DNA of 64,000 nt, taken from contig NZ_RJTM01000107.1 of assembly GCF_003725735.1 (NCBI RefSeq), forward strand, positions 1 through 64,000, in the 5' to 3' direction. Numbering within the stretch: the stretch's first letter is position 1; every line of letters begins with the position of its first letter. Source of the DNA: Sinomicrobium pectinilyticum. Lineage in GTDB: Bacteria > Bacteroidota > Bacteroidia > Flavobacteriales > Flavobacteriaceae. This document shows positions 35,946 through 61,459 of this stretch, in pieces. The position numbers were made by a program, and so were the translations under genes. The notes under the pieces are model-generated. The model did not search any database. It worked only from the letters and a program-made list of their open reading frames with translations, and was not told the DNA's origin.

Positions 35946-36542
35946 TTGGAGACAAACAGGAAAACAGACGATTTGTGGGAGGAACTCCGGAAAGGGAGTA
36001 CAGTCGCTCTTGGTTCCCTATACGACGAATATGCCGATGTCCTGTTCTCCTATGGCATGCGGATGTCCGGAGATCGTGAAAAGGTTCTCGATGCCATACA
36101 TGACCTTTTCCTGGACCTGTATAAGTACCGGAAAAAACTTTCACCCTGTTCCAATGTGCAATCATATCTTGTCCGGTCTTTGCAGCGAAAGATCAATCAA
36201 CAATACAAAACAGAGGGGAAGACAGTTTCTGTAGAAAATACGGAACAAAGTATCCCTGCACCGCTGTACGTGGTTAATTCCACAGAAGAAGAATATATCA
36301 GCAGGGAGTTGCACACGGAGAAGGTAATACGTATGGAATCGTCATTTGGTTTACTCACCGACAGACAGCGACAGGCATTATTCCTGAAGTTCAAGGAAGA
36401 AAAACCATACGAAGAAATAGCGGAGATCATGAATATTTCCATAGAAACTTCCAGAACGTTGATCTATCGGGCGGTAAAAGTACTGCGTGCCCATTTGCTT
36501 CCCTGCCTGCTCATCCTTTCGGGCCTCTTTTTCGGAAAATAG
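35946..36542 (+). CDS. ECF sigma-70 factor 1
   Basis: A 198-residue extracytoplasmic-function sigma factor. The start is TTG at 35946; no in-frame ATG precedes the conserved region. Region 2 is seen in LYDEYADVLFSYGMRM and HDLFLDLYKYRKKL. Region 4 is LTDRQRQALFLKFKEEKPYEEIAEIMNISIETSRTLIYRAVK, a helix-turn-helix. A short hydrophobic C-terminus (LPCLLILSGLFFGK) follows. It is expected to be held inactive by the FecR protein encoded 485 bp downstream and released when the STN-containing SusC binds its ligand. It then activates the locus. Confidence 0.92.
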   Translation: METNRKTDDLWEELRKGSTVALGSLYDEYADVLFSYGMRMSGDREKVLDAIHDLFLDLYKYRKKLSPCSNVQSYLVRSLQRKINQQYKTEGKTVSVENTEQSIPAPLYVVNSTEEEYISRELHTEKVIRMESSFGLLTDRQRQALFLKFKEEKPYEEIAEIMNISIETSRTLIYRAVKVLRAHLLPCLLILSGLFFGK

Positions 36543-36561
36543 ACTTCGATTTATACCATGT

Positions 36562-36609
36562 GGGTATACCTTACCCTGAAAAAAAACAGGTACACTCCTG
36601 AATATACCC
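36562..36609. other. Nested hairpin after sigma 1
   Basis: GGGTATA (36562-36568) pairs with TATACCC (36603-36609), enclosing a second stem CCTG-A8-CAGG. It could separate expression of the sigma and fecR genes. Confidence 0.45.
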
Positions 36610-37027: not shown

Positions 37028-38053
37028 GTGGATATCCAAAAGGAAGAAAAGAGGGAATTAAAAGAACGGATAATGAGGTCCGTAACAGGCTATAAAAGGC
37101 GCGAAAGAATAAAACGGGGAACTCTTGTTCTCGGATGTGCCGTACTGATGTTATCGGCAGGGTGGTTTTATTTGGGAGGAGAGCAACCTTCCGCTATTTA
37201 TGATTATGCCCGAACCCTGGATAGGGATAGTCAAAAAAACGGGGGCAAAGTAGAACTTATTTTAGAAAAAGGACAGCGTGTTAAACTGGCGGAGAGCGAT
37301 TCTACCATAACCTATTCGCAGACGGGGAGCAAGGTAACTATAGGAAAGTCAAAAATTATTTCCCGGGAGAATACGGGTAAAGAAAAAACAGCATACAACA
37401 CGCTTGTTGTACCCTATGGCAGGAGGTCCAGGATAGAACTTTCGGACGGCACAGTGGTTTGGCTGAATTCCGGTTCCCGACTGGTGTACCCGACTGCTTT
37501 TCCGGATGATAAAAGAGAAGTTTACCTGGAAGGGGAAGGAATTTTTGAAGTGGCCCATAATAAGAAAAAGCCTTTTATGGTACTTGCCGATAACCATAAA
37601 ATCCGGGTATTGGGAACGGTATTTAATGTGAGTAACTACAAAGAAGATAATTCCGTAAAGACCGTGTTAAAGAGTGGAAGCGTTGAGGTGGAGTATAGAG
37701 GAGACGGAATCTGGAAGGGAAAGGAAACCATTAAAATTGCACCGGGAACCATGACCGAATACGAAAAGAACACCGGAAAAATGACATCCGGGGAAGTTGA
37801 TGTAGAAGATTTCTTTTCCTGGAAGGAAGGCGTGCTGATCCTCAAAAGCAGTAAAATGGAGGATATCGTAAAAAAGCTGTCCAGGTATTATAACATAGAG
37901 ATAAAGATCGAAGATGAGAAATTGGCAAAAGAGACATTTTCCGGCCATCTCGATTTAAAGGAAAGTGTGGAAAACGTAATACGGACAATAAACAAGACCA
38001 CTGATTTCAAATATTTCAGATCAGAAGAAAACAACCAATGGATTATTAACTAA
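37028..38053 (+). CDS. FecR-type anti-sigma factor 1
   Basis: A 341-residue inner membrane protein, starting at GTG 37028. A short basic cytoplasmic N-terminus (1-32), which binds the sigma factor, is followed by one membrane helix (about 33-52, LVLGCAVLMLSAGWFYLGG). The periplasmic FecR domain contains YGRRSRIELSDGTVVWLNSGS and YLEGEGIFEVAHNKKKPF. The C-terminal DUF4974 (about 275-341) ends with FSGHLDLKESVENVIRTIN. It senses the STN domain of the SusC encoded next and controls sigma 1. Confidence 0.93.
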   Translation: MDIQKEEKRELKERIMRSVTGYKRRERIKRGTLVLGCAVLMLSAGWFYLGGEQPSAIYDYARTLDRDSQKNGGKVELILEKGQRVKLAESDSTITYSQTGSKVTIGKSKIISRENTGKEKTAYNTLVVPYGRRSRIELSDGTVVWLNSGSRLVYPTAFPDDKREVYLEGEGIFEVAHNKKKPFMVLADNHKIRVLGTVFNVSNYKEDNSVKTVLKSGSVEVEYRGDGIWKGKETIKIAPGTMTEYEKNTGKMTSGEVDVEDFFSWKEGVLILKSSKMEDIVKKLSRYYNIEIKIEDEKLAKETFSGHLDLKESVENVIRTINKTTDFKYFRSEENNQWIIN

Positions 38054-38179: not shown

Positions 38180-41100
38180 ATGAATAAAAATGCTAACCTT
38201 GGCTCCCGGGGGAAATTTCCCTTACGGAGGTACTTGTGGACTGCGATGAGAATTTTTCTTCTTTTTATCGGCATCGGATTATCTTCGGTTTATGCAAGTC
38301 ATTCCTCCGCCCAGACGCGAATGGATATCGATGTCAAAAACGTTACGGTAAAATATTTATTCGAAGAAATACAAAAAAAGAGCGAGTACATATTCTTTTA
38401 TAAGGATGGCACCTTAGATGAAAACAAACAGGTTTCCTTTACGGCAAAAGACATTACATTACAGGATATCCTGAACCGGGTATTCGGCCAGACCGATCTT
38501 ACTTACGAATTGGATGGCAGGCAGGTAGTTGTTCGTAAAAAACCGGCAAAAATACCCGAAACTAACGAAACCGGTACTAACGTTCCGGTTGTGCAAGGCA
38601 TAGAAATATCCGGTACGGTAAAAGATTCCGAAGGCATGCCCCTGCCCGGAGCCAATGTAGTGGAGAAGGGAACGACACATGGCACACAAACCGATTTTGA
38701 CGGGAATTATGCTCTAACCGTTTCCGGTGAAAATGCGGTATTGCTGGTTTCGTATATGGGCTTTATAAGCCGGGAGATCCCGGTAAAGGGACAAACGGAA
38801 ATACAGGTTACCTTAGAGGAAGACGTTTCCAACCTCGAAGAAGTAGTTGTGGTAGGATACGGAACCCAGAAGAAAGTAAACCTCACCGGGGCCGTGAGCC
38901 AGGTAACGGCAGAAGCCATTGAAAACCGGCCCGTGGCAAATCTGGGGCAGGCTTTACAGGGCGTGCTTCCCAACCTCAATATCAGTATACCTAGCGGGAA
39001 CCCCAATGCTACACCTTCTTTTAATGTCAGGGGAGGGACTTCACTCCAATATAATTCTGATGACAGTAAGTATGAATTTCAGTCCGGTAGCCCTTTCATA
39101 CTGGTAGACGGAGTGCAAATGGATATTAACATGCTCAACCCGGAAGATATCGAAAGCATAAGTATTCTGAAAGATGCTGCTTCGGCAGCAATTTATGGTG
39201 CCCGTGCCGCTAATGGTGTGGTACTGGTAACGACCAAGAAAGGAAGGCGGTCACAAAAACCGCAGATCACGTACAGTACTTCTTTCCAGTTTAACCGTCC
39301 TTCTGCCCGTCCGGACCTCCTGGATGCCTATACCATACAGGATGCAGCGATAAAAGCGGTGGAGTATGAAAACCGTACCCCTTCCGGAGATATGTACGAT
39401 AAACTCAATGCCATTAAGGCATATATGGATAATCCGGAGGAGAATCCGCCTTATATAATGAGCCCGGGAGGGAGTATAATATGGGTAGCGAATACGAGGC
39501 CATATGACGAAGCGGTACGCAATGCCGCACCCATGATGAAGCACAACCTGAGCCTGAGGGGAGGTTCGGAAAAAAATACCTATATGATATCCCTGGGCTA
39601 CCAGGACCAGGAAGGGATCTATAAAATAAATACGGATAAGTTCAAAAGGTATAATGTATTGGTTAATGTAGGCTCCGAAATCACGGACTGGCTCGGTATG
39701 GATTACCAGATCTCCTGGAATAATACCATATATGAAGAGCCCATTAGTCCGGCAGGAAAAGGTAGCTGGTGGTATGCTATGGCGCAGGAACCTTTCCGGA
39801 ATATCAATATGCCCATAAAAACCCCGGCAGATTCTCCCGTGGGTGAGATGTATACGGATAATATCCTGTCCTTTATGAGTTACGGATCGAACAGAAAAAG
39901 CATGAACGAACGCTTGCTTATGAAAATAGCTCCTACCATAAAACTTTTGAAAGGATGGAACCTGAAAGCGGATTTTTCGTATATGTCCAGGAATTACAGA
40001 CAAAAAGAAGTATTGCCCGAATTATTGCGTGTGGATACGGATTGGAACAATCTTATAAACTCCCATACCAACCCGTCTTACATCGATAAAACGAGTGATC
40101 GCACAGATCAGTATACCCTGAATGTCTACACCAATTACGATACTACGCTGGGAAAACACGATATTTCCCTGTTGGCCGGGTTTAACCAGGAATGGTTGAG
40201 GTACGAACATCTCAGGGGAAGAGGAGAGGGAATTTTATCGCCTAATATTCCGGTAATCAATCAGACTACCGGAAATGAATATGCTTATGATAGCGAAAGC
40301 CATTGGGCCGTAAGGGGAGCTTTTTACCGGATAACCTATAATTATGACAATCGTTATTTGCTGGAATCCAACGGGCGTTATGACGGCACTTCCAGGTTCC
40401 CGAAAGACCGGAGGTTTAAATTCTTCCCTTCCATTTCCGGAGCCTGGAGGGTTTCGGAAGAATCTTTCACCGGATTCTTAAAACCAACATTTGACGAATT
40501 GAAGTTCAGGGCGAGTTACGGTAGCCTTGGTAACCAGAACGTAGACAACTATATCTATATCCCTTCATACGGAACAGTTTCACAGGTACAGCACATGCTT
40601 AACGGGGTACGTCCCATAGGCATTACACCTCCCGGACTGGTGGACCCCGATCTTACCTGGGAGACTTCCACGACCCTGGATTTCGGGGTGGATATGGCAC
40701 TATTGGGTAATAAACTCGATCTTTCTTTTGATTGGTACAGGAGAAAAACCACAGATATACTGATAGCAGGCGATAAATTCCCGGCTGTTCTGGGAGCGTC
40801 CTCACCTACAAAGAATTCGGGAGCTATGCAAACCGAAGGTTGGGAACTGGAAGTGAGATGGAAAGACCGGTTCGAATCTGGCTTCAGGTATGATGTGGCC
40901 CTGAACCTTTGGGATTATCAAAGCGAGGTCGTGACTTTTGACGGGAACCCGAATAAATTATTGAGTAGTTTATACGAAGGACAAAAAATGGGAGAGATCT
41001 GGGGTTATGAGACTTCCGGGATCTTTCAGACTGAGGAAGAGATAGAAGCCGCTCCAAGTCAGCATTTACTCAATTCCCAGTGGTTCCCGGGAGATGTTCG

Positions 41101-41659
41101 TTATGCCGACCTGGATGGTAACGGTGAGATAAGCCCGGGAGAACAGACAGTGGAAAATCCCGGAGACCGGAAAATAATAGGAAACAGCACCCCGAGATAC
41201 CAGTTTGGCCTGAATATGAACGCTTTATGGAAAAATTTCGATCTGAACATCTTTTTTCAGGGAGTTGGGAAAAGAGATTACTGGATAGATGGTTCGCAAA
41301 GTCTGTACTGGGGAGGATTGTCCAACGGGGCAGGGACCTGGGAGATTTATAACAATACCTGGACACCCGAGCAAAGAGATGCTCATTTCCCCGTATATAA
41401 AAACAAAGCAGCCAACAGGCAGGTACAAAGCAGGTTTATACAAAATGCAGCCTATATACGCCTGAAAAACCTGGCATTGGGTTATACGTTGCCACAGGAG
41501 ATCAGTGAGAAGATAAAGGTAGAAAGATTGCGTTTATCCGCCTCCGCCTACAATATCTGGGAATATACTAAAGTCCCTGATGTATTTGACCCCGAACTCA
41601 TGAGTGCCGATTACCCCATGATGCGGTCTTTTGCACTTGGCCTGCAGGTAACCTTTTAA
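38180..41659 (+). CDS. STN-containing SusC/RagA-type transporter (locus 1)
   Basis: A 1159-residue outer membrane transporter. The signal region (about 1-47, ASHSSAQ) is followed by a secretin/TonB N-terminal (STN) signalling domain, about residues 49-115 (VKYLFEEIQKKSEYIFFY, QDILNRVFGQTDLTYEL). Next come a carboxypeptidase-like domain (about 140-220, PLPGANVVEKGTTHG), the TonB box EEVVVVGYG, the plug (PFILVDGVQMDIN, ISILKDAASAAIYGARAANGVV) and the barrel ending ALGLQVTF. The STN domain links ligand uptake to FecR 1 and sigma 1. It is paired with SusD 21 bp downstream. Confidence 0.95.
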   Translation: MNKNANLGSRGKFPLRRYLWTAMRIFLLFIGIGLSSVYASHSSAQTRMDIDVKNVTVKYLFEEIQKKSEYIFFYKDGTLDENKQVSFTAKDITLQDILNRVFGQTDLTYELDGRQVVVRKKPAKIPETNETGTNVPVVQGIEISGTVKDSEGMPLPGANVVEKGTTHGTQTDFDGNYALTVSGENAVLLVSYMGFISREIPVKGQTEIQVTLEEDVSNLEEVVVVGYGTQKKVNLTGAVSQVTAEAIENRPVANLGQALQGVLPNLNISIPSGNPNATPSFNVRGGTSLQYNSDDSKYEFQSGSPFILVDGVQMDINMLNPEDIESISILKDAASAAIYGARAANGVVLVTTKKGRRSQKPQITYSTSFQFNRPSARPDLLDAYTIQDAAIKAVEYENRTPSGDMYDKLNAIKAYMDNPEENPPYIMSPGGSIIWVANTRPYDEAVRNAAPMMKHNLSLRGGSEKNTYMISLGYQDQEGIYKINTDKFKRYNVLVNVGSEITDWLGMDYQISWNNTIYEEPISPAGKGSWWYAMAQEPFRNINMPIKTPADSPVGEMYTDNILSFMSYGSNRKSMNERLLMKIAPTIKLLKGWNLKADFSYMSRNYRQKEVLPELLRVDTDWNNLINSHTNPSYIDKTSDRTDQYTLNVYTNYDTTLGKHDISLLAGFNQEWLRYEHLRGRGEGILSPNIPVINQTTGNEYAYDSESHWAVRGAFYRITYNYDNRYLLESNGRYDGTSRFPKDRRFKFFPSISGAWRVSEESFTGFLKPTFDELKFRASYGSLGNQNVDNYIYIPSYGTVSQVQHMLNGVRPIGITPPGLVDPDLTWETSTTLDFGVDMALLGNKLDLSFDWYRRKTTDILIAGDKFPAVLGASSPTKNSGAMQTEGWELEVRWKDRFESGFRYDVALNLWDYQSEVVTFDGNPNKLLSSLYEGQKMGEIWGYETSGIFQTEEEIEAAPSQHLLNSQWFPGDVRYADLDGNGEISPGEQTVENPGDRKIIGNSTPRYQFGLNMNALWKNFDLNIFFQGVGKRDYWIDGSQSLYWGGLSNGAGTWEIYNNTWTPEQRDAHFPVYKNKAANRQVQSRFIQNAAYIRLKNLALGYTLPQEISEKIKVERLRLSASAYNIWEYTKVPDVFDPELMSADYPMMRSFALGLQVTF

Positions 41660-41680
41660 CAACGTTTAAAATATTTCCAA

Positions 41681-43465
41681 ATGAAGAAATTATATATAGT
41701 CTTAACGGTATGTGCCGGGCTCCTGGCGGGTAGCTGTAACGATGATTTTATGGAAAGGTATCCACTGGATGAAGTTACGGATGAAAACTTCTGGCAGACG
41801 GAGCAGGACCTGGAATTGTATTGCAATGATCTTTATGCCCAGTATATCCGTGGTTTTAGTTATGGCTGGGGTCAAAATAACGTTAGCCCTTATGGCTATA
41901 ACGAAGCCACTATTCCGTACGGGGATGTTATTACCGACAATGCTGCACCCGATTCCTATTCCAGGGTAGCTGCCAACGAATATAACGGCCATGTTACCGG
42001 GGGTAGTGGCAGCGGAGGCTGGAGTTGGGGAAACATGAGAAAACTCAATTATTTTCTCGATAATTACCTGAGAGGCGATGTAGATCCCGATGTGAGGAAT
42101 GTATACCTGGGGGAAGTAATGTTCTTTAAAGCCTGGGACTATTATGAAAAAGTAAAGATCTTCGGAGATGTACCGTGGTATACCCATGTCCTGGAAACCA
42201 ATTCAGAAGAACTGTATGCACCCAGAACACCCAGGGTAGAAGTTATGGATTCCGTAATGAAACTGCTTGATGAGGCTATTGGTTATCTCCCTGAAAAAGG
42301 AGCACAAAAACCGGGAAGGATCCATAAGGATGTAGCCTTACATCTGAAATCGCGCATAGGCCTTTTTGAAGGAACCTACCGGAAATATCATACCGAACTT
42401 GGCCTGGAAGGAACGGCATTTCTGGAAGCCAGTGCCGATGCCTCCGAAAAACTGATGAATGCCGGGTATTCCATATATACCACGGGGAATATCAATGAAG
42501 ATTACCACAACCTTTTTGCGCAGTATTCCTATGCCGATAACCCAGAAATTATTTTATGGAAAGAATACAGTGCCAATGAAAATCTGGGTGTAGCCTTCAG
42601 CAGGTATTACGCCCAGAATTTACGTCATCGACATGGAGCTACCAGGGCCCTGGTAGATTCTTATCTGTGTATTGACGGGCAACCTATAGCCAACAGCCCG
42701 CTGTTCCAGGGGAAAGATTCCATACAACAGGAAATGCTCAATCGCGATCCCAGGTTGAGGCAAACCATCTGTAATTTCGGGGAATATGCCCTGGCAGAAG
42801 GGGCAATGGGAGCCGATAATGCCCCCTTGCCCAATATTCCCGGCCTTAGCGGGAACAAATGCCCTACGGGATACCGGGTTGGCAAATGGTTCTTTAATGA
42901 GCCGGACGACTGGGGGCGGCTAACGAATGGTATGCAGGCCGCTCCTGTATTCCGCTATGCTGAAATTTTGCTCAATTATGCCGAAGCCAAATACGAACTG
43001 GGACAGCTATCGCAGGATATTATAGATCAAACGATAAACCGGGTAAGGTCCAGGGTAAACATGCCGGCGCTTAATCTCGGTAATATACCTGCCGATCCGG
43101 CACTGGACAACGATTATGCTACGTATTGCGATTATGTCCCCGAACCCGTACTCCGGGAAATCCGAAGGGAAAGACGTGTGGAACTGGCCTTTGAGAACTT
43201 CCGGTGGGATGATCTGATGCGGTGGAAAGCCGGGAAATTTCTCGAAAAACCGGTGGAAGGCATCAAATTCGTACAGGAGCAATTCCCCGGAGTTGTGGTG
43301 GGAGCAGATGTGTTTCTAAGTGGAGAAGGGTATATTTTGCCCTACTATCAGGTACTGCCCGAAGGCCGCACCTGGGATGATCGTCAGTACCTGTTCCCCA
43401 TACCCATAGAAGACCTGGTACTCAACCCGAACCTGGAACAAAACCCGGGCTGGGAATCCAATTAA
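41681..43465 (+). CDS. SusD/RagB-type lipoprotein (locus 1)
   Basis: A 594-residue surface lipoprotein (lipobox in GLLAGSCNDDFMERY). SusD hallmarks are EVMFFKAWDYYEKVKIFGDVPWYT, the RYAEILLNYAEAKYELG helix pair and REIRRERRVELAFENFRWDDLMRWKAG near the C-terminus. It ends PNLEQNPGWESN, typical of the group. It is the partner of the STN-SusC, 21 bp downstream. The ligand is inferred to be a glycan or glycopeptide released by the two peptidases that follow. Confidence 0.95.
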   Translation: MKKLYIVLTVCAGLLAGSCNDDFMERYPLDEVTDENFWQTEQDLELYCNDLYAQYIRGFSYGWGQNNVSPYGYNEATIPYGDVITDNAAPDSYSRVAANEYNGHVTGGSGSGGWSWGNMRKLNYFLDNYLRGDVDPDVRNVYLGEVMFFKAWDYYEKVKIFGDVPWYTHVLETNSEELYAPRTPRVEVMDSVMKLLDEAIGYLPEKGAQKPGRIHKDVALHLKSRIGLFEGTYRKYHTELGLEGTAFLEASADASEKLMNAGYSIYTTGNINEDYHNLFAQYSYADNPEIILWKEYSANENLGVAFSRYYAQNLRHRHGATRALVDSYLCIDGQPIANSPLFQGKDSIQQEMLNRDPRLRQTICNFGEYALAEGAMGADNAPLPNIPGLSGNKCPTGYRVGKWFFNEPDDWGRLTNGMQAAPVFRYAEILLNYAEAKYELGQLSQDIIDQTINRVRSRVNMPALNLGNIPADPALDNDYATYCDYVPEPVLREIRRERRVELAFENFRWDDLMRWKAGKFLEKPVEGIKFVQEQFPGVVVGADVFLSGEGYILPYYQVLPEGRTWDDRQYLFPIPIEDLVLNPNLEQNPGWESN

Positions 43466-43512: not shown

Positions 43513-44898
43513 ATGAAAACTATGTATAAGTGGACATTGTCCGCAGTGCTATGGATTGCCTTGTTGTTTGCTGTTTCCTGTGACTTTCCGGAGGAAGGAG
43601 AAGACGGCGTTCTCCCGGAAGAACCAACCCCCGGGTTTGTAACGCACCCGGAAAACCTGAATATCGTGTATTTTGTTCCTACCGATAACCCGGCAGTAAC
43701 AGATTACGAAGAACGTTTGAGTGAACTTCTCATCTATTTTCAGGACTATGTAAAGTCGGAAATGGACCGTAACGGTTTCGGTCAGAAAACTTTCGGTCTT
43801 CCTGTAGATACCATAAATAATCGCGTTAAGCTGGTTACCATTCAGGGAGAACACGACCAGGCTACGTACGATTACGGAAGCGGGAGTACCATTATCAGTG
43901 AGATCAATGCCTACAAACAGGCTCACCCGGAAGATTTCAGCAGTGAGCATACGCTTATCATCCTTCCGGAGCGGACGGATGGCGGAAGTCAGCCTTTCTA
44001 CGGTTCCGGGAGAAGCTGTTTTGCCCTGGATAATCCCAATATCAAAGTAGAAGAGATTCCCGTAACTTCTTCGAACTATATCGGGGGAATGCTCCATGAA
44101 CTCGGTCACGGACTGGGACTTTCCCACAATAAAGCAACAGTTTCCGAACAGCAATCTCTCGGGACTTCTCTGATGGGATCGGGGAACACCACTTTCGGAA
44201 GACAGCCTACCTTTATCACTGAAGTAGACTGTGCAATCCTCAACAGGAACCAGATATTTCAATCTACACCGGTACCTGGCATATACGAAGGGGCTACAAC
44301 CACGGCCAGTCCGCAGCTGACTTTTGATGATGCTACCCAGAGCCTCCATGTACAAGGCAGCTTTACCAGTGACAAGACCGTAAGCGATATACTGTTCTGG
44401 TTAGATCCCAACGTGAACAATGAAGGGTCAGGAGTAAACAAAGATTACAATTCCGTAGGCTGGAGAGGTCTGGTTTTGAGTGGTAATACCTATAACATAA
44501 ACTTGCCGGTTCAGGAAATACAGGACCACGGAGATTGGCAGTATGAGCTGAAAATAAAACTGCTCATGCAAAACGGAACCATTAAAACCCATACCTATTC
44601 TTTTGAATTTGTAAATGGCGAATATACCCCGGAAACCAAAGCAGGAGTGTACCAGCATTCCAGTTATAACGGGTGGGGAGTAGAACTCGAAGCGGGATCA
44701 TACACAACAAGTCAGCTCGTAGCCCTGGGAGGAATAGACAACGATATCAGTTCCGTAAGAGTGCCCCTCGGTCTTAAAGTCACCCTTTATTCCGAAGATA
44801 ATTTTACGGGGGAATCTTACGAGGTAACCACGGGGAATGTCTCCTTCTTATCCGCTTTCAACGACAAGACATCCTCCATAGTTGTGGAAGAAGATTAG
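43513..44898 (+). CDS. Metzincin metallopeptidase lipoprotein (BF0631-like) with a C-terminal crystallin-like domain
   Basis: A 461-residue lipoprotein (lipobox Cys about 23 in LFAVSCDFPEE). The zinc motif HELGHGLGLSH spans 195-205, matching the metzincin HExxHxxGxxH pattern with Glu196 as base. The Met-turn candidate is GTSLMG (Met221). The region ahead of it (NIVYFVPTDN, RVKLVTIQGEHDQ) resembles the bacteroidetal zinc-dependent lipoprotein metzincins (BF0631 type). The C-terminus (about 377-459: YNGWGVELEAGSYT, LYSEDNFTGESYEVTTG) looks like a beta/gamma-crystallin Greek-key domain. It is probably surface-exposed and cleaves protein parts of a glycoprotein. Its paralogue is at 58038. Confidence 0.85.
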   Translation: MKTMYKWTLSAVLWIALLFAVSCDFPEEGEDGVLPEEPTPGFVTHPENLNIVYFVPTDNPAVTDYEERLSELLIYFQDYVKSEMDRNGFGQKTFGLPVDTINNRVKLVTIQGEHDQATYDYGSGSTIISEINAYKQAHPEDFSSEHTLIILPERTDGGSQPFYGSGRSCFALDNPNIKVEEIPVTSSNYIGGMLHELGHGLGLSHNKATVSEQQSLGTSLMGSGNTTFGRQPTFITEVDCAILNRNQIFQSTPVPGIYEGATTTASPQLTFDDATQSLHVQGSFTSDKTVSDILFWLDPNVNNEGSGVNKDYNSVGWRGLVLSGNTYNINLPVQEIQDHGDWQYELKIKLLMQNGTIKTHTYSFEFVNGEYTPETKAGVYQHSSYNGWGVELEAGSYTTSQLVALGGIDNDISSVRVPLGLKVTLYSEDNFTGESYEVTTGNVSFLSAFNDKTSSIVVEED

Positions 44899-46403: not shown

Positions 46404-46477
46404 CGATTTGAGTTTTGAGTTAGTTAGTTTATTTCACAGGCTCTCCTCTTCCTGATCCGGAGGGAGAGCCTTAATTT
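46404..46477 (+). terminator. Terminator block after M60 gene (locus 1)
   Basis: CGATTTGAGTT, GAGTTAGTTAGTTT and ACAGGCT precede the stem GGCTCTCC (46439-46446)/GGAGAGCC (46463-46470), which is followed by TTAATTT. The same three words in the same order occur at 57884-57958 before another hairpin. Confidence 0.8.
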
Positions 46478-46505
46478 GACAAACAAACGGAGATATAAGT
46501 ATATT

Positions 46506-46519: not shown

Positions 46520-46578
46520 TTTTAGAATTATTTTATATTGCAAGAAATAACCTGACTGAAAATACTGTAACCGTAAAC

Positions 46579-52690: not shown

Positions 52691-55600
52691 ATGAAAAAAT
52701 TTCTTTCCGGAAGGAAGGGGTGGATGCTGTATGTCAAATTTAAAACAAAAACGAAGATCAGTACCATACTCTTGAGTATTGTATTGTTGACAGCACAGGC
52801 AAATACTTCCTATTCCCAAAAATCCAGGATATCCCTGGACATGCATAACATCACTATAGCACGTCTGATAGATGTTATAGAAAGTAAGAGCGATTACCAT
52901 TTTGTGTACAAGACCAGGGATGTGGACCTGGAACGAAAAGTATCCGTCAAAGCCGAGGAAGAAGAGATCACCTCGGTGCTGGACCGCATTTTCGGAAATA
53001 CCGGAACCGCATATAATATTGTAAAAAAACAAATATTTCTCACCGTTAAGGAAACAAAAGAAAAGACGGATGGCCAAGGAACAGCAGAAATCCGGCAAAT
53101 ACAGATAAGTGGTATAGTGAAGGACGGGAATGGAAATGTTCTGCCAGGTGTAACCGTCATGGAGAAGGGCACACAGAACGGAACGGCGACCGATTTTGAC
53201 GGGAATTACGAACTTTTGGTCTCGGGGACAAATGCTGTTTTATCCTTTAGCTATATTGGGTTTGTAACAAAAGAAGTCCCTGTAAACGGCCTTACTGCGA
53301 TAGATGTGGTTCTGAAAGAAGACGTTTCCGAACTAGATGAGGTTATCGTAGTGGCATACGGAACACAGAAAAAGGAAAACCTTACGGGTGCTGTAGTTTC
53401 CGTAAGCAGCGAAAAACTGGCTAACCGTCCCGTAGCCTCCACGCAAAATGCCCTTCAGGGAATAGCCCCGGGGGTAACCATACTGCAACGCCCCGGGGAT
53501 GTGGGGCGTAATTCCGACGGAACAAGCGGTAATACCGGGGGGATAACCATAAGGGGACGCAGTAACCTCGGTTCTCCCGGTCCTATGTATGTCATAGACG
53601 GAATCCCTGCAACATCACAGGAATTTGCATCGTTGAATGCCAATGATATAGCAAGTATGTCGGTGCTTAAAGATGCTTCTTCTGCCGCTCTTTACGGTTC
53701 ACGCGCAGCAAACGGGGTCATTGTGGTTACGACCAACCGCGGAGGAGGGGAAAAGGCCACTGTACAGTTCAATACCAGCTACGGATGGCAATCCGCTACC
53801 AGGTTACCCGATTATGTAAATTCTGCGGACTATGCTGCTTTGTATAATGAAGCATTGGGCAATAAGGGAAGGGACCCGCTTTATACCGAAGACCAGATAA
53901 GAAAGTTTGCAGATGGTTCCGAGCCGGACCTGTATCCCAATACGGACTGGTATAAGACCGTACTGCACTCGGCAGCGCCGCAAAGGGAAGCCAGTCTTAA
54001 TATCAGTGCACCGGGGAAAATTACCAATTACTACCTGGGCCTTACATATTTTGACCAGGAATCCCTGATACCGGGTAAAAAACAGGACCGTATCGTTGCC
54101 AAACTCAATACCGAAAGCCATATCGTAGAGAACTTGTTGAAAGTCGCCACAAATTTCTCTTTTATCAAACAGGATTTTGATCGTGACGGTGGAAACATGA
54201 GCTGGACAGAGCTCAATCGCTCCCTTCCTACATCGGTAGTACGCCAGTCCAACGGAGAGTGGGGCTCCATAGACGGAGGGGTTGCCAATGCACAAACGGC
54301 ACAACGCAACCAGTTACGCATACTGGAAGAAGGAGGTAGCGGCTGGGACAGGGACAATTACCTGCAGCTCGCCACAAATGCAACGCTTACTCCCCTGGAA
54401 GGACTGACCATTAATGGACTTACCTCTCTCAAATATACCAATTCCAATTCCTGGTCTTTTAACAGTACCATAGATCCCATAAACAATTTCCTCACCGGGG
54501 ATATAATGAACTCCACGAGGGTAACACCTAATGAAATGACGGAATACTGGAGAAAAAGACAGGAATTCCTCATCCAGGGAACTGTAGATTACGAACGCCG
54601 TTTCGGAGAGCAACACTTTGCGAAGATCACCGTTGGTGCCAGCCAGGAAAGCAATGTTTTCAGGACTGCTTTCATCGGGAGGAAAAATTTCCCCAACAAC
54701 GATATGGAAACCGTAGGCAGTGGCTCCGGGAATTCGGAAGACATAAGTTCTGACAACGACGGACAGGCCAACAGGAGCAACCAGGAAGAATGGGCCATGC
54801 GTTCCTTTTTCGGAAGGCTCAATTACACGTTTGCCGATAAATACCTGCTGGAAGCCAATACACGGATAGATTATTCTTCCCGTTTTCATCCCGATCACAG
54901 GCGGGCCGTATTCCCGTCTTTCTCTGCCGGGTGGATTGTTTCGAAGGAATCCTTTATGGAAAACATTTCCTGGCTCGATCACCTGAAAATCCGTGGGTCC
55001 TGGGGTTCGTTGGGGAACCAGAATGTCGTTACGATAGGTAACTATTTCGATGTGCTGAACCTTGATTATTCCTATAATTTCGAAGATACCGCACAAGGCG
55101 GGGCCTGGCAGGGCCGGGGTTCTAATATTTCAGCCACCTGGGAAAAGGTGAAAATGCTGGATATAGGGCTAGATATTAACCTCTTTGGTAACAGGGTAAA
55201 TATTGTAACCGATTACTATGTTAAAAGAACCGAAGGTATACTCACACAATTACCCGTCTTGAGTACTTACGGATTTCCGAATAGCGGCATTCCTTATGTC
55301 AATGCTGCCGAAATCAGGAACAGAGGTTTTGAACTTGCGGTCAATTATTCCGACAGGATAGGAGAGGATTTCCGGTTTACTATCGGCGGAAACCTTTCCT
55401 CCATAGATAACGAGATACTGAACCTGGGGCAGGGTGTCGAAGAAAGGATAAACAGCTACTGGATAGAAAGAGTAGGTGGGTCCGTAGGTGATTTTTACGG
55501 TTATCGGGCCGATGGCCTTTTCAGGGATGTTGCAGATGTGGAAAATCACGCGTACCAGTCGGCCGCGACTGCTCCCGGAGATATTAAATACAGGGATGTG

Positions 55601-56143
55601 AATGGTGACGGGATGATCAATGAACAGGACCGTGTGGTTATCGGTAACGATGTTCCGTGGTTCAATTACGGTTTTAACCTGAGTGCCGAATACAAAGGGA
55701 TCAGTTTTGAGGTACTTACCTATGGGGTCGGTAAAGTAAAGACCTACCTGGCCAATGAAGCCTCTTTCCCTTTCTTTAACGGTGCGGGGATAAAAGAAGA
55801 ACTGAAAAACAGGTGGACAGAAGCCAATCCGGATCCGGATGCAGACTTTCCACGGTTGTTACTGTCACAGGACGGAACACATAATTACGAAAATATATCC
55901 TCCTTCTGGTTATTCAATGCTGCTTATTTCCGGGTACGTTCCATTACCCTCGGGTATACTTTTCCGGAGGAGATCAGCAAAAAACTGGGGATGACCATGC
56001 TGCGCGTATACGGCACTTCCAACAACCCGCTTACGTTCATGGCCGACAAACGCCTGGCTGATTACGATCCGGAACTGGGATCGGGCCGGGGAGGTTATCC
56101 CGGGATAAAGACCTTTTCCCTCGGATTCAATTTCAGGTTTTAA
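52691..56143 (+). CDS. STN-containing SusC/RagA-type transporter (locus 2)
   Basis: A 1150-residue transporter. A long basic n-region and signal helix (to about 37, LLTAQA) lead to an STN domain (about 50-118, IARLIDVIESKSDYHFVYK, SVLDRIFGNTG). The carboxypeptidase-like domain (about 138-220, VLPGVTVMEKGTQNG), the TonB box DEVIVVAYG, the plug (PMYVIDGIPATSQ, SVLKDASSAALYGSRAANGVI) and the barrel ending FSLGFNFRF follow. The STN domain couples transport to FecR 2 and sigma 2. SusD follows after 30 bp. Confidence 0.95.
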   Translation: MKKFLSGRKGWMLYVKFKTKTKISTILLSIVLLTAQANTSYSQKSRISLDMHNITIARLIDVIESKSDYHFVYKTRDVDLERKVSVKAEEEEITSVLDRIFGNTGTAYNIVKKQIFLTVKETKEKTDGQGTAEIRQIQISGIVKDGNGNVLPGVTVMEKGTQNGTATDFDGNYELLVSGTNAVLSFSYIGFVTKEVPVNGLTAIDVVLKEDVSELDEVIVVAYGTQKKENLTGAVVSVSSEKLANRPVASTQNALQGIAPGVTILQRPGDVGRNSDGTSGNTGGITIRGRSNLGSPGPMYVIDGIPATSQEFASLNANDIASMSVLKDASSAALYGSRAANGVIVVTTNRGGGEKATVQFNTSYGWQSATRLPDYVNSADYAALYNEALGNKGRDPLYTEDQIRKFADGSEPDLYPNTDWYKTVLHSAAPQREASLNISAPGKITNYYLGLTYFDQESLIPGKKQDRIVAKLNTESHIVENLLKVATNFSFIKQDFDRDGGNMSWTELNRSLPTSVVRQSNGEWGSIDGGVANAQTAQRNQLRILEEGGSGWDRDNYLQLATNATLTPLEGLTINGLTSLKYTNSNSWSFNSTIDPINNFLTGDIMNSTRVTPNEMTEYWRKRQEFLIQGTVDYERRFGEQHFAKITVGASQESNVFRTAFIGRKNFPNNDMETVGSGSGNSEDISSDNDGQANRSNQEEWAMRSFFGRLNYTFADKYLLEANTRIDYSSRFHPDHRRAVFPSFSAGWIVSKESFMENISWLDHLKIRGSWGSLGNQNVVTIGNYFDVLNLDYSYNFEDTAQGGAWQGRGSNISATWEKVKMLDIGLDINLFGNRVNIVTDYYVKRTEGILTQLPVLSTYGFPNSGIPYVNAAEIRNRGFELAVNYSDRIGEDFRFTIGGNLSSIDNEILNLGQGVEERINSYWIERVGGSVGDFYGYRADGLFRDVADVENHAYQSAATAPGDIKYRDVNGDGMINEQDRVVIGNDVPWFNYGFNLSAEYKGISFEVLTYGVGKVKTYLANEASFPFFNGAGIKEELKNRWTEANPDPDADFPRLLLSQDGTHNYENISSFWLFNAAYFRVRSITLGYTFPEEISKKLGMTMLRVYGTSNNPLTFMADKRLADYDPELGSGRGGYPGIKTFSLGFNFRF

Positions 56144-56173: not shown

Positions 56174-57823
56174 ATGAGAAAGACAATTCTATATACATGT
56201 ACGGCACTTCTAATGTTTACCGTATCCTGTTCCGATGATTTCCTGGAAAGACCGCCGCTGGATGACGTTTCCGAAGAAACATTCTGGAAAACGGAAGAAG
56301 ACCTGTACAAGGCTGTAAACGGTATCTACAGCCAGTTGCCCGCCGAGGGATTTATCTATGACGACGGTTCTTCCGATAATGCACATGCGCAATACCCCTG
56401 GGAAAGTAAAGCCACGGTAATCTCGGCAGGAAGTATAATTACCGCAGATGATGCAGGCTGGGGATATGAAGACAAGCGTCGCTGTAACTATTTCCTGGAA
56501 AATGCGGATGCCGTGGAAAATGCGGACCCGGACCTGCTTAACAGGTACAAGGCAGAAGTGCGTTTTGTACGGGCTTATTCCTATTTCCGGATGATGTGTA
56601 AATTCGGAGCCGTTCCCCTGGTGACCCGTACGCTCGAAATAAATGAAGTGGATATTCCCCGTACCCCGAGAGAAGAAGTACTGGATTTCATTGTAACGGA
56701 ACTGGAAGACATTGCGGAAATACTCCCGGTAACTTATCCGGGAGGAAAACCCCATGAAAAAGGCAGGATCACCCGTGGGGCAGCCCTAGCCCTTAAAGCA
56801 AGGGCCCATCTTTACGAAGGGCAATGGCAGGAAGCTGTGGATGCCGCCCAAAAAGTAATGGACCTGGGGATATACGACCTCTTTAAACTGGATGCCGAAA
56901 GCGATATTAACCTGGAAGATAACTACAGTCATTGGGTTGACTTCGACGATGAACAGGACAAGCAGAACTTCAGGCTGGGCTTACGCAGTTATGAGACATT
57001 ATTTCACGAAGAATATGAAGGAAATAGCGAAGTGATCCTGGACAGGCAACGTATAGCCCAGATCGATGATAATTTTCTCAACACCTATCTGCCTCCCGGT
57101 ACTATCGGCGGATGGAGTTCCGTAACCCCCACACAGGAACTGGTAAACAGCTACAACAGTTATAAGACAGGAGAACCAGTAATCCTTCCCGCACCGGAAC
57201 AAAGGGCTGAATGGTACAACAGCGGAGATCCTGCCTTTGAAGAAGAGTTCCGCAACCGGGACCCGCGCCTGTACGCAACTGTAATGTTTCCCGGGGCACC
57301 GTGGAATGCCATAGAAGACGGATTTGTATTCGAATGGGTACAAGGGGCTTCCAATATGTCGCAGACCGGTTATAACTTCCGGAAACTTGTCGATCCGAAG
57401 ATATACCGGGAAAATATAGGGAACTACGCCAATGTTATTCTCCTGCGCTATGCCGAAGTCCTGCTGACCTATGCCGAAGCCAAAAATGAACTGAGCGGTC
57501 CCGATACCGGTATTTATGATGTCCTGGACGATATACGGGAAAGAGCGGGCATGCCTTCTGTAGACAGGAATTTATATAACACCCAGGAGAAATTGCGGGA
57601 AGTGATCCGCAATGAAAGAAGAGTAGAGCTTGCCCTGGAAGGTCATCGGTATATGGATATCCGCAGATGGCAGATCGCCCCGGTAGTGATGAAGAATATC
57701 AAAAACCTGAAGAACACTATTGCACAGGACCGGGTATGGGAAGATAAATTATACCTCATGCCCGTACCGCAATCGCAAATGGATCTGTCCGAAGGTGTAC
57801 TGGAACAAAACCCGGGATATTGA
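56174..57823 (+). CDS. SusD/RagB-type lipoprotein (locus 2)
   Basis: A 549-residue lipoprotein (lipobox in LMFTVSCSDDFLERP). It has SusD features: RFVRAYSYFRMMCKFGAVPLVT, LRYAEVLLTYAEAKNEL and REVIRNERRVELALEGHRYMDIRRW. It ends with SEGVLEQNPGY, as in SusD of locus 1. It is the partner of the upstream STN-SusC. A terminator-like hairpin follows (57932-57958), so expression of the downstream peptidases may be reduced relative to susCD or may start from another promoter. Confidence 0.95.
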   Translation: MRKTILYTCTALLMFTVSCSDDFLERPPLDDVSEETFWKTEEDLYKAVNGIYSQLPAEGFIYDDGSSDNAHAQYPWESKATVISAGSIITADDAGWGYEDKRRCNYFLENADAVENADPDLLNRYKAEVRFVRAYSYFRMMCKFGAVPLVTRTLEINEVDIPRTPREEVLDFIVTELEDIAEILPVTYPGGKPHEKGRITRGAALALKARAHLYEGQWQEAVDAAQKVMDLGIYDLFKLDAESDINLEDNYSHWVDFDDEQDKQNFRLGLRSYETLFHEEYEGNSEVILDRQRIAQIDDNFLNTYLPPGTIGGWSSVTPTQELVNSYNSYKTGEPVILPAPEQRAEWYNSGDPAFEEEFRNRDPRLYATVMFPGAPWNAIEDGFVFEWVQGASNMSQTGYNFRKLVDPKIYRENIGNYANVILLRYAEVLLTYAEAKNELSGPDTGIYDVLDDIRERAGMPSVDRNLYNTQEKLREVIRNERRVELALEGHRYMDIRRWQIAPVVMKNIKNLKNTIAQDRVWEDKLYLMPVPQSQMDLSEGVLEQNPGY

Positions 57824-57883: not shown

Positions 57884-57963
57884 CGATTTGAGTTGACCGG
57901 AACCGGTTGACAGAGTTAGTTAGTTGACAGGCTGTCCCCTGTCTGAAGGCAGGGGCAGTTTTA
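57884..57963 (+). terminator. Terminator block between susD and peptidases (locus 2)
   Basis: CGATTTGAGTT, GAGTTAGTTAGTT and ACAGGCT precede the stem CTGTCCCCTG/CAGGGGCAG (57932-57958) and TTTTA. The block matches that at 46404-46477 in word order. A weak GTG-N8-CAT variant (GTGATACCCCCCAT, 57979-57992) follows. Confidence 0.7.
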
Positions 57964-58037: not shown

Positions 58038-59618
58038 ATGAAAAGAAAAATTATTTTGAGAATGATGGCCCTCATGGCTATGGTGTTGTTTTATGCTTGT
58101 GTACCGGACGATACTGTGCCGGAAACTCCGGATAATCCCGATGAGGTAAATTATACATCCGATTATGCCTATAACCTCAATGTCATATACTTTGTGTCCA
58201 ATGACAGGCAGGTCAACGAGGATTATGAAGAGAGGATCAGTAAAATAATGCTGGAGGGACAACAATTTTTTGCCGACTGGATGCAACACTGGGGTTATGG
58301 CAATAAAACCTTCGGATTGCTGAAGGACGAGATTAAGCAACGGGTAAAAATTCATCTTATTCAGGGAGAAAAGAGTTCCGAAAACTACCCTTACGAGGGA
58401 GGGGCATCGGCAGTAAAAGAAGAAATAGATGCCTATTTTGCCGAGCACCCGGAAGAAAAGGCCAGCGATCACAACCTGATCATCTGTGCGGTAAATGAAA
58501 AACTGGACGAAGGAGAGGAAATGGAAGTCGGCGTACCCTTTTACGGTATCGGACGGGATGCCTACGCGCTTGATTATCCCGGGATGTGTTATGATAACCT
58601 CGGAACCGGGGGAGATGTGGGGTGGAAAGCTACCGTGTGGATAGGCGGACTGTACCACGAAATGGGGCATGGCCTTAACCTGCCGCATTGCGGGTCTACA
58701 TTAACCGAATCCGAAAGTAGCGATTACGGCACCTCCCTCATGGGCCCCGGGAATTCCACTTTTGGTATCAGTCCTACGTTTTTGGCGCATTCAAGTGGGG
58801 CTATAGTGAATAACTGCCAGGTTTTTTCCAAGGAAAATAAAATGTTTTATACGGATACGAATGCTCATGTAAACGCATTACGGGCCTATTACGAAGACGG
58901 GGATATTATTGTTTCTGGTTCTTATGTGACCGATATCCCGGTGACCGATATTACCTATTACCACAAACCGGGAACTGATCCCGGGGGATACCGCGCCGTT
59001 ACCTGGGTAGGTGAACCATTGACAGATAACAGCTTTTCCATCCGTATGCCGGTATCCGAATTCAAGGAAAAAGAAAACAACGAATATACGTTCAGCATTA
59101 TCCTGCACCACGAAAACGGGAACAATACCTGGACAGATTTCAATTATGCCTTTCAATCCGATATTCCCGATATAGATATCAGCATAGGACAGCAGGATGT
59201 TTACGATAAAAGTAACTGGCAGGTAACGGGCTTCAGTTCCGAAGAAACGGTTAACGAAGACGGGGCAGCCATTAACATTCTGGACGGTAGCCCACAGACC
59301 TACTGGCATTCCAGGTGGAATACGGATACGGCAGGCTACCCGCATTATCTCGTCATTGATACGGGAGAAGAATTATCTGCAAAAGGATTCGTAATACACC
59401 AGCGGGTAGGAAAACGGGCTGTTAAAGCATATGAAATAGAAGTAAGCAATGATAACGCCTCCTGGGAAACTGTGATACAGGGAGACCTGGAAGATACTTA
59501 TGAACAGGTTATCGAACTGGCAGAAGAAACGAATTTCCGCTATTTCCGGTTTACGGCCAAATCCTCTCACGACGGTGAACAATTTGCCGCACTGGCGGAA
59601 ATCGGGGTGTATTACTGA
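58038..59618 (+). CDS. Metzincin metallopeptidase lipoprotein with F5/8 type C domain
   Basis: A 526-residue lipoprotein (lipobox near VLFYACVPDDT). Its peptidase part is paralogous to the protein at 43513 (NVIYFVSNDRQ, RVKIHLIQGEK, DYGTSLMGPGNSTFG Met-turn). The zinc motif HEMGHGLNLPH spans 207-217. Asn replaces Gly at the third-from-last conserved position, which the metzincin pattern tolerates. The C-terminal domain (about 388-526: NILDGSPQTYWHSRWN, KAYEIEVSNDNASWE, FRYFRFTAKSSHDGEQFAALAEIGVYY) is an F5/8 type C (discoidin/CBM32-like) module, typically for galactose-, GalNAc- or GlcNAc-containing glycans. It acts with the M60-like gene 62 bp downstream. Confidence 0.88.
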   Translation: MKRKIILRMMALMAMVLFYACVPDDTVPETPDNPDEVNYTSDYAYNLNVIYFVSNDRQVNEDYEERISKIMLEGQQFFADWMQHWGYGNKTFGLLKDEIKQRVKIHLIQGEKSSENYPYEGGASAVKEEIDAYFAEHPEEKASDHNLIICAVNEKLDEGEEMEVGVPFYGIGRDAYALDYPGMCYDNLGTGGDVGWKATVWIGGLYHEMGHGLNLPHCGSTLTESESSDYGTSLMGPGNSTFGISPTFLAHSSGAIVNNCQVFSKENKMFYTDTNAHVNALRAYYEDGDIIVSGSYVTDIPVTDITYYHKPGTDPGGYRAVTWVGEPLTDNSFSIRMPVSEFKEKENNEYTFSIILHHENGNNTWTDFNYAFQSDIPDIDISIGQQDVYDKSNWQVTGFSSEETVNEDGAAINILDGSPQTYWHSRWNTDTAGYPHYLVIDTGEELSAKGFVIHQRVGKRAVKAYEIEVSNDNASWETVIQGDLEDTYEQVIELAEETNFRYFRFTAKSSHDGEQFAALAEIGVYY

Positions 59619-59680
59619 AAAAAGTCATACATCTTGTATTAACCCTGAAACTTATTTATTAACCATAAATCCAAATACTT

Positions 59681-61459
59681 ATGAAACATTCTTATGTGAA
59701 TCTTAACCTGGTTATACTGCTCCTGGTCTTTGCAGGGGGAGTATTTTCCTGCGGTGTACCATCCGAAACAGATCCGGAAGGACCTTCCGTTCCCGGCGAT
59801 GATGAAATAATTGTCGAAGAAATCCTGGAATTCAACGAGACGCCTTCCGGTACACAGGAAGCAGCAAGGCTCGGTCAGTCCAATCCCGCTTCCGATTTCA
59901 CGCCTACGGGTTTTTATCTCCCTCCGAATACCGAACTTGTTGTAAAGGTAGACCAGTTAGAACCGGGAAGCGGCACTCCCGTATTGCTCATAGGTTCGTA
60001 TTCGAGGTACGAAGCCAAGTGGAACCCGACGGAAATAGCACTGACCGATGGCATCAATACGGTTCCCGGCGATGAATACGGAGGCATTATGTACATACGG
60101 TACAATACCGGTGAAGGTAATATCGCTTCCGGGCAGGTTCGTATCGAATTTATGGACGGACATCAGCCCATGCCGTATTTTGTACACGGAGAAACGACCA
60201 ACGGGCAATGGCAAACCATGCTCGACACCTGGACAGATGCCCCTGATGTATTGCTGGTCAGTGACAAAGCCATTATAGTGGCCTCTATGGATAAGGCCCT
60301 TCAATACCGCGATGAAGATCAGAACCAGTTACTTACCACTGCTGAACAGATACTGGATGCCGAAGCAGCTATCAGCGGCCAGGACGGTTCCGCACCGGAA
60401 CACCAACGGAATACCCATCGGTTACTGATGACGGAGACCGATATGGAAGATACTTTTATGGCTGCCACATGGTACCGGACCTGGTACCATCGGGATGTGG
60501 TAAACCATATTCTTACGGTGGACGGATTGGGTAACGACGGCTGGGGCCCCTGGCACGAATTGGGACACATGCACCAGCAGGGAGCCTGGACGTGGGACGG
60601 ATTGGGTGAAGTAACCGTGAATATTTATTCTCTTGCGGCAGAAAGAGCAATGGGTGTAACGCCTTCACGGATGGTCAGGGACGGCGTGTGGTATGCCGTA
60701 GCCGATTATCTTGCGCTGCCCGATGAAGAAAGGGATTTTAACAGTGCTGCAGCAAGTTTATTTGTACGTCTCGGTATGTTTCAGCAACTATGGCTTGCGT
60801 ATGGTGATACTTTTTTTCAGCAGTTGCATAAACAAACCAGGGAAGAACAGCCAAACCCGGGAAGCACGGAAGCCGAAATGCGTTATTTTATGCTGAAAGC
60901 CTGTGAAATATCCGGCAATGACCTGGGTGATTTTTTTCAGAAATGGGGATTGAAAGTAAGCACCTCCGTTTATGACGAAATCGCGGCATTAAACTTGTCG
61001 GAACCGGAAGAAGACCTGACGGAACTGACCGACGACCCGGACTGGGAAAGCCGATGGCTGATAACAGATTACAGTTCCCAGGAAACGAGCGGGGAAAACG
61101 GTAGGGCTTCAAATATTATTGACGGTGACCCCGCAACATACTGGCATTCGCAGTGGTCCGGTGATAACGCGGCGGAATATCCGCATCATGTGAGTGTGGA
61201 CATGAAAGGAGCTACTGCGGTGAATGGTTTTACCTTAACACAACGCGACGGCCAGCGAAAAGTAAAGGACCTGGAAATACTGGTAAGTAATGACAATACA
61301 AACTGGGAAAGCCTCGGAGATCATGTGCTGGAAGAAACCGCTGCACCACAGAATATAGACCTGCCGGAAAGCCAATCTTTCCGGTATTTTAAACTGGTCA
61401 TGAAATCGGCTTATGACGGACTTCAGTTTGCCGCAATGGCTGAAGTTACAGTATATTAA
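59681..61459 (+). CDS. M60-like peptidase lipoprotein with F5/8 type C domain
   Basis: A 592-residue lipoprotein (lipobox in GGVFSCGVPSE). The M60-like domain has HELGH at 292-296 with Glu310 (WTWDGLGEVTVNIYSL) as third zinc ligand, and the family segments GWGPWHELGHMHQQ and LALPDEERDF. A C-terminal F5/8 type C domain (about 451-592: NIIDGDPATYWHSQWS, DLEILVSNDNTNWE) follows. This explains the about 138 extra residues compared with the paralogue at 44958. It is probably a mucin- or O-glycoprotein-directed protease with a glycan anchor. It ends the locus with a good terminator. Confidence 0.92.
   Translation: MKHSYVNLNLVILLLVFAGGVFSCGVPSETDPEGPSVPGDDEIIVEEILEFNETPSGTQEAARLGQSNPASDFTPTGFYLPPNTELVVKVDQLEPGSGTPVLLIGSYSRYEAKWNPTEIALTDGINTVPGDEYGGIMYIRYNTGEGNIASGQVRIEFMDGHQPMPYFVHGETTNGQWQTMLDTWTDAPDVLLVSDKAIIVASMDKALQYRDEDQNQLLTTAEQILDAEAAISGQDGSAPEHQRNTHRLLMTETDMEDTFMAATWYRTWYHRDVVNHILTVDGLGNDGWGPWHELGHMHQQGAWTWDGLGEVTVNIYSLAAERAMGVTPSRMVRDGVWYAVADYLALPDEERDFNSAAASLFVRLGMFQQLWLAYGDTFFQQLHKQTREEQPNPGSTEAEMRYFMLKACEISGNDLGDFFQKWGLKVSTSVYDEIAALNLSEPEEDLTELTDDPDWESRWLITDYSSQETSGENGRASNIIDGDPATYWHSQWSGDNAAEYPHHVSVDMKGATAVNGFTLTQRDGQRKVKDLEILVSNDNTNWESLGDHVLEETAAPQNIDLPESQSFRYFKLVMKSAYDGLQFAAMAEVTVY

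Follow-up and report, generated by a model that had tools for sequence, protein, structure and literature searches.

In the 64,000-nucleotide stretch of the Sinomicrobium pectinilyticum genome that we analyzed (positions 1 to 64,000 of contig NZ_RJTM01000107.1, assembly GCF_003725735.1; hereafter the window), two consecutive loci reading in the same direction share a six-gene plan: an extracytoplasmic function (ECF) sigma factor, a FecR-type anti-sigma factor, a SusC transporter with an STN domain (STN-SusC), a SusD-like lipoprotein, a metzincin and an M60 peptidase. Locus 1 (35946–50248) continues with a GH2 and a GH29 gene, which are present downstream in copy 1 alone; locus 2 (50610–61459) ends with its M60 gene. 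This repeated plan had been proposed in an initial annotation made from the sequence, and we could confirm it, as a Pfam scan recovered the ECF sigma factor, FecR, SusC, SusD and M60 in both copies and the metzincins were recognized by their matches to OgpA of Akkermansia. Both loci have the makeup of a Sus-type polysaccharide utilization locus (PUL) under ECF sigma/anti-sigma control (sigma factor, FecR, STN-SusC, SusD and enzymes, all co-directional), with the STN domain of SusC copy 2 scoring 25.6 bits, under the Pfam cut-off of 28.4. Assignment as lipoproteins was made from lipobox-like N-termini read in the sequence. The features are:

35946..36542, + strand: ECF sigma factor, locus 1 (PF08281 3.7e-12, PF04542 2.4e-05)
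37028..38053, + strand: FecR-type anti-sigma factor, locus 1, short N-terminus (PF04773, PF16344; residues 33-341 align to FecR2 90-386)
38180..41659, + strand: STN-SusC TonB-dependent transporter 1 (PF07660, PF13715, PF07715, PF00593)
41681..43465, + strand: SusD-like lipoprotein 1 (PF07980 1.3e-46)
43513..44898, + strand: OgpA-family metzincin lipoprotein 1, C-terminal beta/gamma-crystallin domain (6z2d 1.3e-58; Foldseek 6z2d 4.3e-33; PF00030 2.5e-07)
44958..46322, + strand: M60 peptidase lipoprotein 1, no carbohydrate-binding module (CBM) found (PF13402 1e-42; 4fca 7.4e-44)
46417..46475, + strand: GAGTTAGTTAGTT and a terminator-like stem-loop, M60-1/GH2 junction (fold z -3.81)
46504..48708, + strand: GH2 (PF02836/02837; best PDB 3fn9 1.6e-236)
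48683..50248, + strand: GH29 alpha-L-fucosidase (PF01120 8.9e-78; PDB 6hzy/2xib ~1e-151)
50610..51206, + strand: ECF sigma factor, locus 2 (PF08281, PF04542)
51357..52517, + strand: FecR-type anti-sigma factor, locus 2 (PF04773, PF16344)
52691..56143, + strand: STN-SusC transporter 2 (PF07715, PF13715; PF07660 sub-threshold)
56174..57823, + strand: SusD-like lipoprotein 2 (PF07980 7.1e-56)
57913..57960, + strand: GAGTTAGTTAGTT and a stem-loop, SusD2/metzincin 2 junction (fold z -3.17)
58038..59618, + strand: OgpA-family metzincin lipoprotein 2, C-terminal CBM32 (6z2o 2e-60; PF00754)
59681..61459, + strand: M60 peptidase lipoprotein 2, C-terminal CBM32 (PF13402 4.2e-52; 4fca 9.8e-61)

The view that the sigma factors are only weakly similar and that the loci are no recent tandem duplication also held. 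Identity between the copies was 23.5% for the sigma factors and 30–46% for all other pairs (FecR 34%, SusC 30%, SusD 30%, metzincin 34%, M60 46%), which argues against a recent tandem duplication; on these values, together with the metzincin and M60 trees described below, we rejected tandem duplication of the six-gene unit. FecR1 (37028–38053) has ~57 N-terminal residues fewer than FecR2, and orthologous frames are likewise short (345–367 codons); the 485 nt upstream of FecR1 held no frame much longer than 100 codons, smaller frames there not having been searched. The listed TTG start of the GH2 gene is doubtful, and there is an in-frame ATG at 46579.

Both metzincins matched OgpA (PDB 6z2d/6z2o) over the whole catalytic region, with E-values of 1.3e-58 for copy 1 and 2e-60 for copy 2. 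Pfam named neither of them, giving a sub-threshold match to PF12044 only, and naming with NCBIfam was set aside: no metzincin family matched and M60 scored far below the cut-off. The two proteins carry the zinc motifs HELGHGLGLSH and HEMGHGLNLPH. The sequence test of OgpA-family membership covered both copies and the fold test copy 1 alone, for which an AlphaFold model (mean pLDDT 77.4) retrieved OgpA first in Foldseek (4.3e-33) and Amuc_1438 (8dek/8df2) second (3.4e-22), with ADAM and snake-venom metzincins being far weaker matches (1.1e-4 and worse). In an alignment of 69 OgpA-family rows, OgpA itself included, the zinc ligands H205/H209/H215, the catalytic E206, the Met-turn M231 and Y318 were present in 69 of 69 rows, including both copies. 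The OgpA residues that hold Gal-GalNAc include Y116, F166, W199, N235 and Y236 (PMC7518263; here and below, statements from cited papers follow excerpts of their text); at these positions copy 1 has Y/F/Y/N/T and copy 2 Y/F/W/N/S, such that Y116, F166 and N235 are retained in both.

The metzincins diverge from each other in the segments around this pocket. OgpA did not cleave core 2 or 6-sialyl core 1, for which docking showed a clash with the long alpha-3 helix, and it cleaved 3-sialyl core 1 slowly, with clashes predicted at loops 4 and 6 (PMC7518263). Counting residues between fixed columns of our single alignment, the alpha-3 region before HExxH is 20 residues long in all six full rows of the copy-1 clade, copy 1 among them, versus 26 in OgpA, and loop 6 is 14 residues long in copy 1 versus 21 (7 fewer); metzincin 2 has the OgpA lengths at both. 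An alpha-3 region of 26 residues was found in 47 of the 69 rows, and shortening also occurs outside the copy-1 clade (14 residues in four Pedobacter/Sphingobacterium rows, 19 in one row and 21 in another). From these lengths we infer that metzincin 1 takes more decorated O-glycans than OgpA does, and we predict different glycan preferences for the two enzymes: metzincin 1 would have a pocket opened to decorated or branched O-glycans, and metzincin 2 would probably be OgpA-like and suited to trimmed core-1-like glycans. Their tails differ as well, being a beta/gamma-crystallin domain in metzincin 1 and a CBM32-type F5/8C domain in metzincin 2. The crystallin domain at the C-terminus of metzincin 1 (43513–44898) contains two motifs, DNDISS and NDKTSS, which fit the calcium-binding consensus; the AlphaFold model was rejected as backing for this tail, with pLDDT below 50 from residue 375.

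The M60 proteins scored 147 and 177.8 bits against PF13402 (cut-off 25.8). M60 peptidases have the consensus HExxH(x8-28)E, and both proteins have a complete HExxH...E that fits it. Their nearest PDB entry was 4fca (7.4e-44 for M60-1, 9.8e-61 for M60-2), with far weaker matches to BcM60F (4.8e-19 and 2.3e-17). M60-2 ends in a CBM32-type F5/8C domain, and no additional module was detected in M60-1. The CBM32-type modules of metzincin 2 and M60-2 are similar to a bacterial sialidase module (2.6e-17 and 3.5e-24).

Searching the whole genome (5.65 Mb, 99.9% complete) we recovered two genes of each kind, OgpA-like and M60, and since all four lie inside these loci their co-location is not due to chance. 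Related loci contain further glycan-active enzymes. In S. oceani a GH20 gene, identified by Pfam, lies between GH2 and GH29 of locus 1, and a 62% identical counterpart occupies the same place in S. weinanense (stretches L075:3564-5171 and L079:2031-3644); neither the window nor stretch L077 of another Sinomicrobium genome, G003, yielded a GH20-like sequence. A GH109-family gene is present in five of six Sinomicrobium genomes, including as a single copy that of the window, and the window genome also has BNR_2 genes, which may encode sialidases or other BNR proteins. A further OgpA-like gene with SusCD occurs in S. weinanense, S. oceani and G003 (L080, L081 and L082, respectively) and was not found in the window genome; it lies beside PL8 in L080 and L082 and beside Hepar_II_III in L080 and L081. 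Echinicola shivajiensis has a PNGase F-like gene close to its other metzincin gene and in the reverse orientation. We take GH20, GH109, PL8, heparinase-like and PNGase F-like neighbors to be animal-glycoconjugate enzymes, going by the general functions of their families.

The closest known system is PUL BT4240-50 of B. thetaiotaomicron, a mucin O-glycoprotein locus, which also comprises an ECF sigma/anti-sigma pair (its presumed regulator), SusC, SusD, a surface M60-like O-glycopeptidase with CBM32, and GH2 (PMC11992087). BT4240-50 differs in having one protease family, a separate SGBP and GH109, and in belonging to a gut organism, whereas the Sinomicrobium loci have an additional OgpA-family metzincin, two complete regulatory switches and an environmental flavobacterium as host. 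The metzincins share with OgpA (Amuc_1119) the catalytic fold, the zinc site and most of the pocket residues, but they are lipoproteins in SusCD loci, have crystallin or CBM32 tails and have Y236 replaced, and copy 1 is 6 residues shorter at alpha-3 and 7 shorter at loop 6. Amuc_1438, the second-best fold match of metzincin 1, is a metzincin O-glycopeptidase with ~20% identity to it and strict Tn specificity (PMC9513282). The BcM60 set of Bacteroides caccae belongs to the M60 family and is PUL-linked (PMC13355702), the window M60s being nearer to the 4fca-type M60 than to BcM60F. What sets the Sinomicrobium loci apart is the occurrence of both kinds of metallopeptidase in one environmental operon; titles and opening lines of abstracts in the open-licence literature described no OgpA-family metzincin in a PUL and no metzincin and M60 combination, which does not establish their absence from print.

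We consider it likely, with a probability of about 0.72, that both loci are Sus-type systems for mucin-type O-glycoproteins in this environmental flavobacterium. The initial annotation had read them as serving glycoprotein or mucin-type utilization, and this is supported because both peptidase families include characterized O-glycopeptidases, the metzincins are OgpA homologs with the complete catalytic set, the M60s have HExxH...E and the layout is that of BT4240-50; GH2 and GH29 in locus 1, GH20 in sister species, GH109 in the genus and animal-glycoconjugate enzymes in related loci add to it. By this mechanism, lipoprotein O-glycopeptidases with two unrelated folds (metzincin and M60 gluzincin) would bind O-glycans at the cell surface, assisted in locus 2 by CBM32, and cleave the peptide chain beside glycosylated Ser/Thr, and the released glycopeptides would be imported by the SusC/SusD pairs. 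GH2 and GH29, with GH20 in sister species, would trim the glycans, and each locus would be induced by its substrate through its own STN-SusC/FecR/sigma switch.

Several points weigh against this reading. Neither locus has a sialidase or GH109, the single GH109 of the genome being on another contig. The identity of GH2 is ambiguous: it scored 651 bits to LacZ4, under the 950-bit cut-off of that model, and could from its sequence be a beta-galactosidase or a beta-glucuronidase. Among 99 neighbors of OgpA-like genes (from 24 of 54 surveyed loci) the four matches to GH109 and six to DUF3472 speak for the mucin reading, but most neighbors were in other families, with 139 families matched and none by more than six members. 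At Y236 (Tyr in 31 of 69 rows) copy 1 has Thr and copy 2 has Ser, and W199 (Trp in copy 2 and in 33 of 69 rows) is Tyr in copy 1, so the exact core-1 specificity of OgpA cannot be assumed here. Finally, a pectin-type PUL directly upstream (17–35 kb) suggests a plant-litter lifestyle, and the Sinomicrobium literature, as judged by titles and abstract beginnings, includes work on coastal and plant-root settings. This upstream cluster (17097–35510) comprises two SusCD pairs, DUF4957/DUF5123, DUF4861, GH88, GH43 and a GDSL lipase, with no sigma factor or FecR among its scanned proteins, and judging by these families is probably a pectin PUL.

It is on these grounds (the upstream GH88, GH43 and DUF4861, the coastal and root-associated surveys seen in titles and abstract beginnings, and the changes at Y236 and W199) that one could instead propose a plant or algal glycoprotein substrate, such as an arabinogalactan protein or extensin, attacked by peptidases repurposed from mucin-specific families. 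We regard this as unlikely, given that OgpA and Amuc_1438 require GalNAc-linked glycans (PMC7518263, PMC9513282), BT4244 cuts unglycosylated peptide only to a very limited extent (PMC11992087), sister loci contain GH20 and the genome a GH109, related loci contain PNGase F-like, PL8 and heparinase-like enzymes, and Pfam assigned no gene of the two loci to an arabinanase or galactanase family. Animal-type O-glycans are favored over plant glycans as the substrate.

An animal substrate could also be a proteoglycan, i.e., a glycosaminoglycan-bearing core protein with O-glycans, rather than mucin proper. The PL8 and Hepar_II_III genes adjoining other OgpA-like genes of the genus are consistent with this, as are the beta-glucuronidase-like affinity of GH2 and the proposal that M60 genes in a chondroitin PUL attack proteoglycan (PMC12269599). 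Neither locus, however, holds a polysaccharide lyase, a GH88 or a sulfatase, the GH88 in the window sitting in the upstream pectin-type cluster, and we rate this alternative as unlikely, too. General protein or peptide scavenging by glycan-independent proteases is very unlikely in view of the several retained glycan-pocket residues, the sialidase-like CBM32-type modules, and GH2 and GH29 in locus 1.

The phylogenies showed that the two peptidases of each locus have separate histories. Metzincin 1 grouped with sequences from Echinicola and from G314, a genome of another family (support 100/99), every member of this clade being crystallin-tailed, and metzincin 2 grouped with Belliella, then with Pedobacter and Sphingobacterium (99/84 and 100/98), with CBM32 tails. 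Since the Echinicola copy 1 is nested within the Sinomicrobium metzincin rows (98/88), the tree points to movement of the copy-1 metzincin between genera; a search for plasmid carriage of metzincin 2 gave no match. M60-1 and M60-2 formed one genus-specific clade (100/99) in a tree of 21 rows drawn from the window's class, and in 395 genomes of the phylum M60 matches from beyond the genus scored at most 58 bits, versus 401 bits between the window copies. Both peptidase families had been described as clearly paralogous between the copies, which applies to the M60s as within-genus duplicates but not to the metzincins, which lie on separate branches; the pair therefore did not originate as a unit.

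Nor is the pairing stable. The locus 1 pair is intact in four of six Sinomicrobium genomes and the locus 2 pair in two of six, with G002 and G004 having neither. In G003 and S. weinanense a third orthologous sigma/FecR/SusC/SusD unit (SusD 90% and SusC 85% identical) separates the position of metzincin 2 from that of M60-2. Each of these genomes has a single partner, G003 being without M60-2 and S. weinanense without metzincin 2, and the fetched stretches showed no significant remnant of the missing gene; the S. weinanense M60-2 is directly 3' of the extra SusCD. Either locus 2 of the window lost this third unit, joining the proteases, or the unit was inserted in the relatives. The locus 1 homolog of Echinicola shivajiensis reads SusC–SusD–metzincin–GH2–GH29–GH29, without M60. 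We surveyed 54 OgpA-like loci in named genomes, found with two short peptide patterns and fetched with up to 10 kb on each side (some contigs being short), and only three, all from Sinomicrobium, had an M60 within 3 kb, leaving 51 without. First-pass phmmer "m60" matches in Marinifilum, Ancylomarina and Echinicola were discarded as signs of a widespread pairing when the catalytic-domain HMM found no M60 there; the two that were scanned (L028:7783 and L067:7990) proved to be F5/8C-bearing DUF3472 proteins. Several OgpA-like genes have a DUF3472 (PF11958) protein encoded next to them (L028, L042 and L067, from Marinifilum, Carboxylicivirga and Echinicola), in some cases with F5/8C domains, and these proteins are possibly further glycoprotein enzymes. 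Among 395 genomes of the class, that of the window included, 12 had an M60 and three a full-length OgpA-like catalytic match, the latter count being possibly low as at most three candidates were scored per genome and short partial matches were not counted; G314 has both, on different contigs.

The initial annotation had treated the proteases as a fixed paired system tied to SusCD. The tie to SusCD held in part, as phmmer with the window's own proteins found SusC in the fetched stretch of 41 of the 54 loci and SusD in 35 (20 and 23, respectively, within 3 kb), and no SusC match in the stretches of the other 13. The fixed pair did not hold: partners are not co-inherited in related loci, and the sequences compared largely refute the pair as a unit of inheritance. 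Least probable of all is joint duplication or transfer of a metzincin and M60 pair; the like gene order in both loci and the locus 1 pair of four genomes are outweighed by the discordant trees, the single partners in G003 and S. weinanense and the 51 loci without M60.

Two intergenic regions of the loci share an element, GAGTTAGTTNGTT followed by a terminator-like stem-loop, found at SusD/enzyme or M60/GH2 junctions (46417–46475 and 57913–57960 in the window; L075, L076, L077, L079, L090 and L091 elsewhere). The six Sinomicrobium genomes contain 18 copies, with 0 control matches; ten are in locus 1 or 2 regions and one more immediately adjoins the third-class metzincin of G003, and loci that no longer have metzincin 2 or M60-2 still carry the element. 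Of three copies in the window genome two are in these loci, and the third (G000:C32:340229; L131/L132) is close to the end of a contig, in a stretch with 83–93% conservation in four other Sinomicrobium genomes. Rfam gave nothing convincing at the intergenic element and no match at the gathering threshold for the third-copy stretch. The element is possibly an attenuator.

Returning to mucin-type O-glycoproteins as the substrate, we tentatively suggest, as a doubtful extension, that attack is graded: metzincin 1, encoded beside GH2/GH29 and, in sister species, GH20, would act on branched or extended O-glycans that block OgpA, and metzincin 2 and the M60s on trimmed core-1/Tn structures, each locus with its own SusCD and sigma switch, the food being mucins of invertebrates or fish in sediment and soil. 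If so, the clade of crystallin-tailed metzincins would represent a new specificity class among O-glycopeptidases. It is mainly in gut bacteria that mucin-type O-glycopeptidases have been found in SusCD loci; here two unrelated O-glycopeptidase families share operons of a sediment and soil genus, and OgpA-like genes are also present in wider environmental Bacteroidota. The family thus offers a natural series of pocket variants, in which loop and helix shortening is predicted to admit branched O-glycans, and enzymes accepting such glycans would be useful tools for glycoproteomics.

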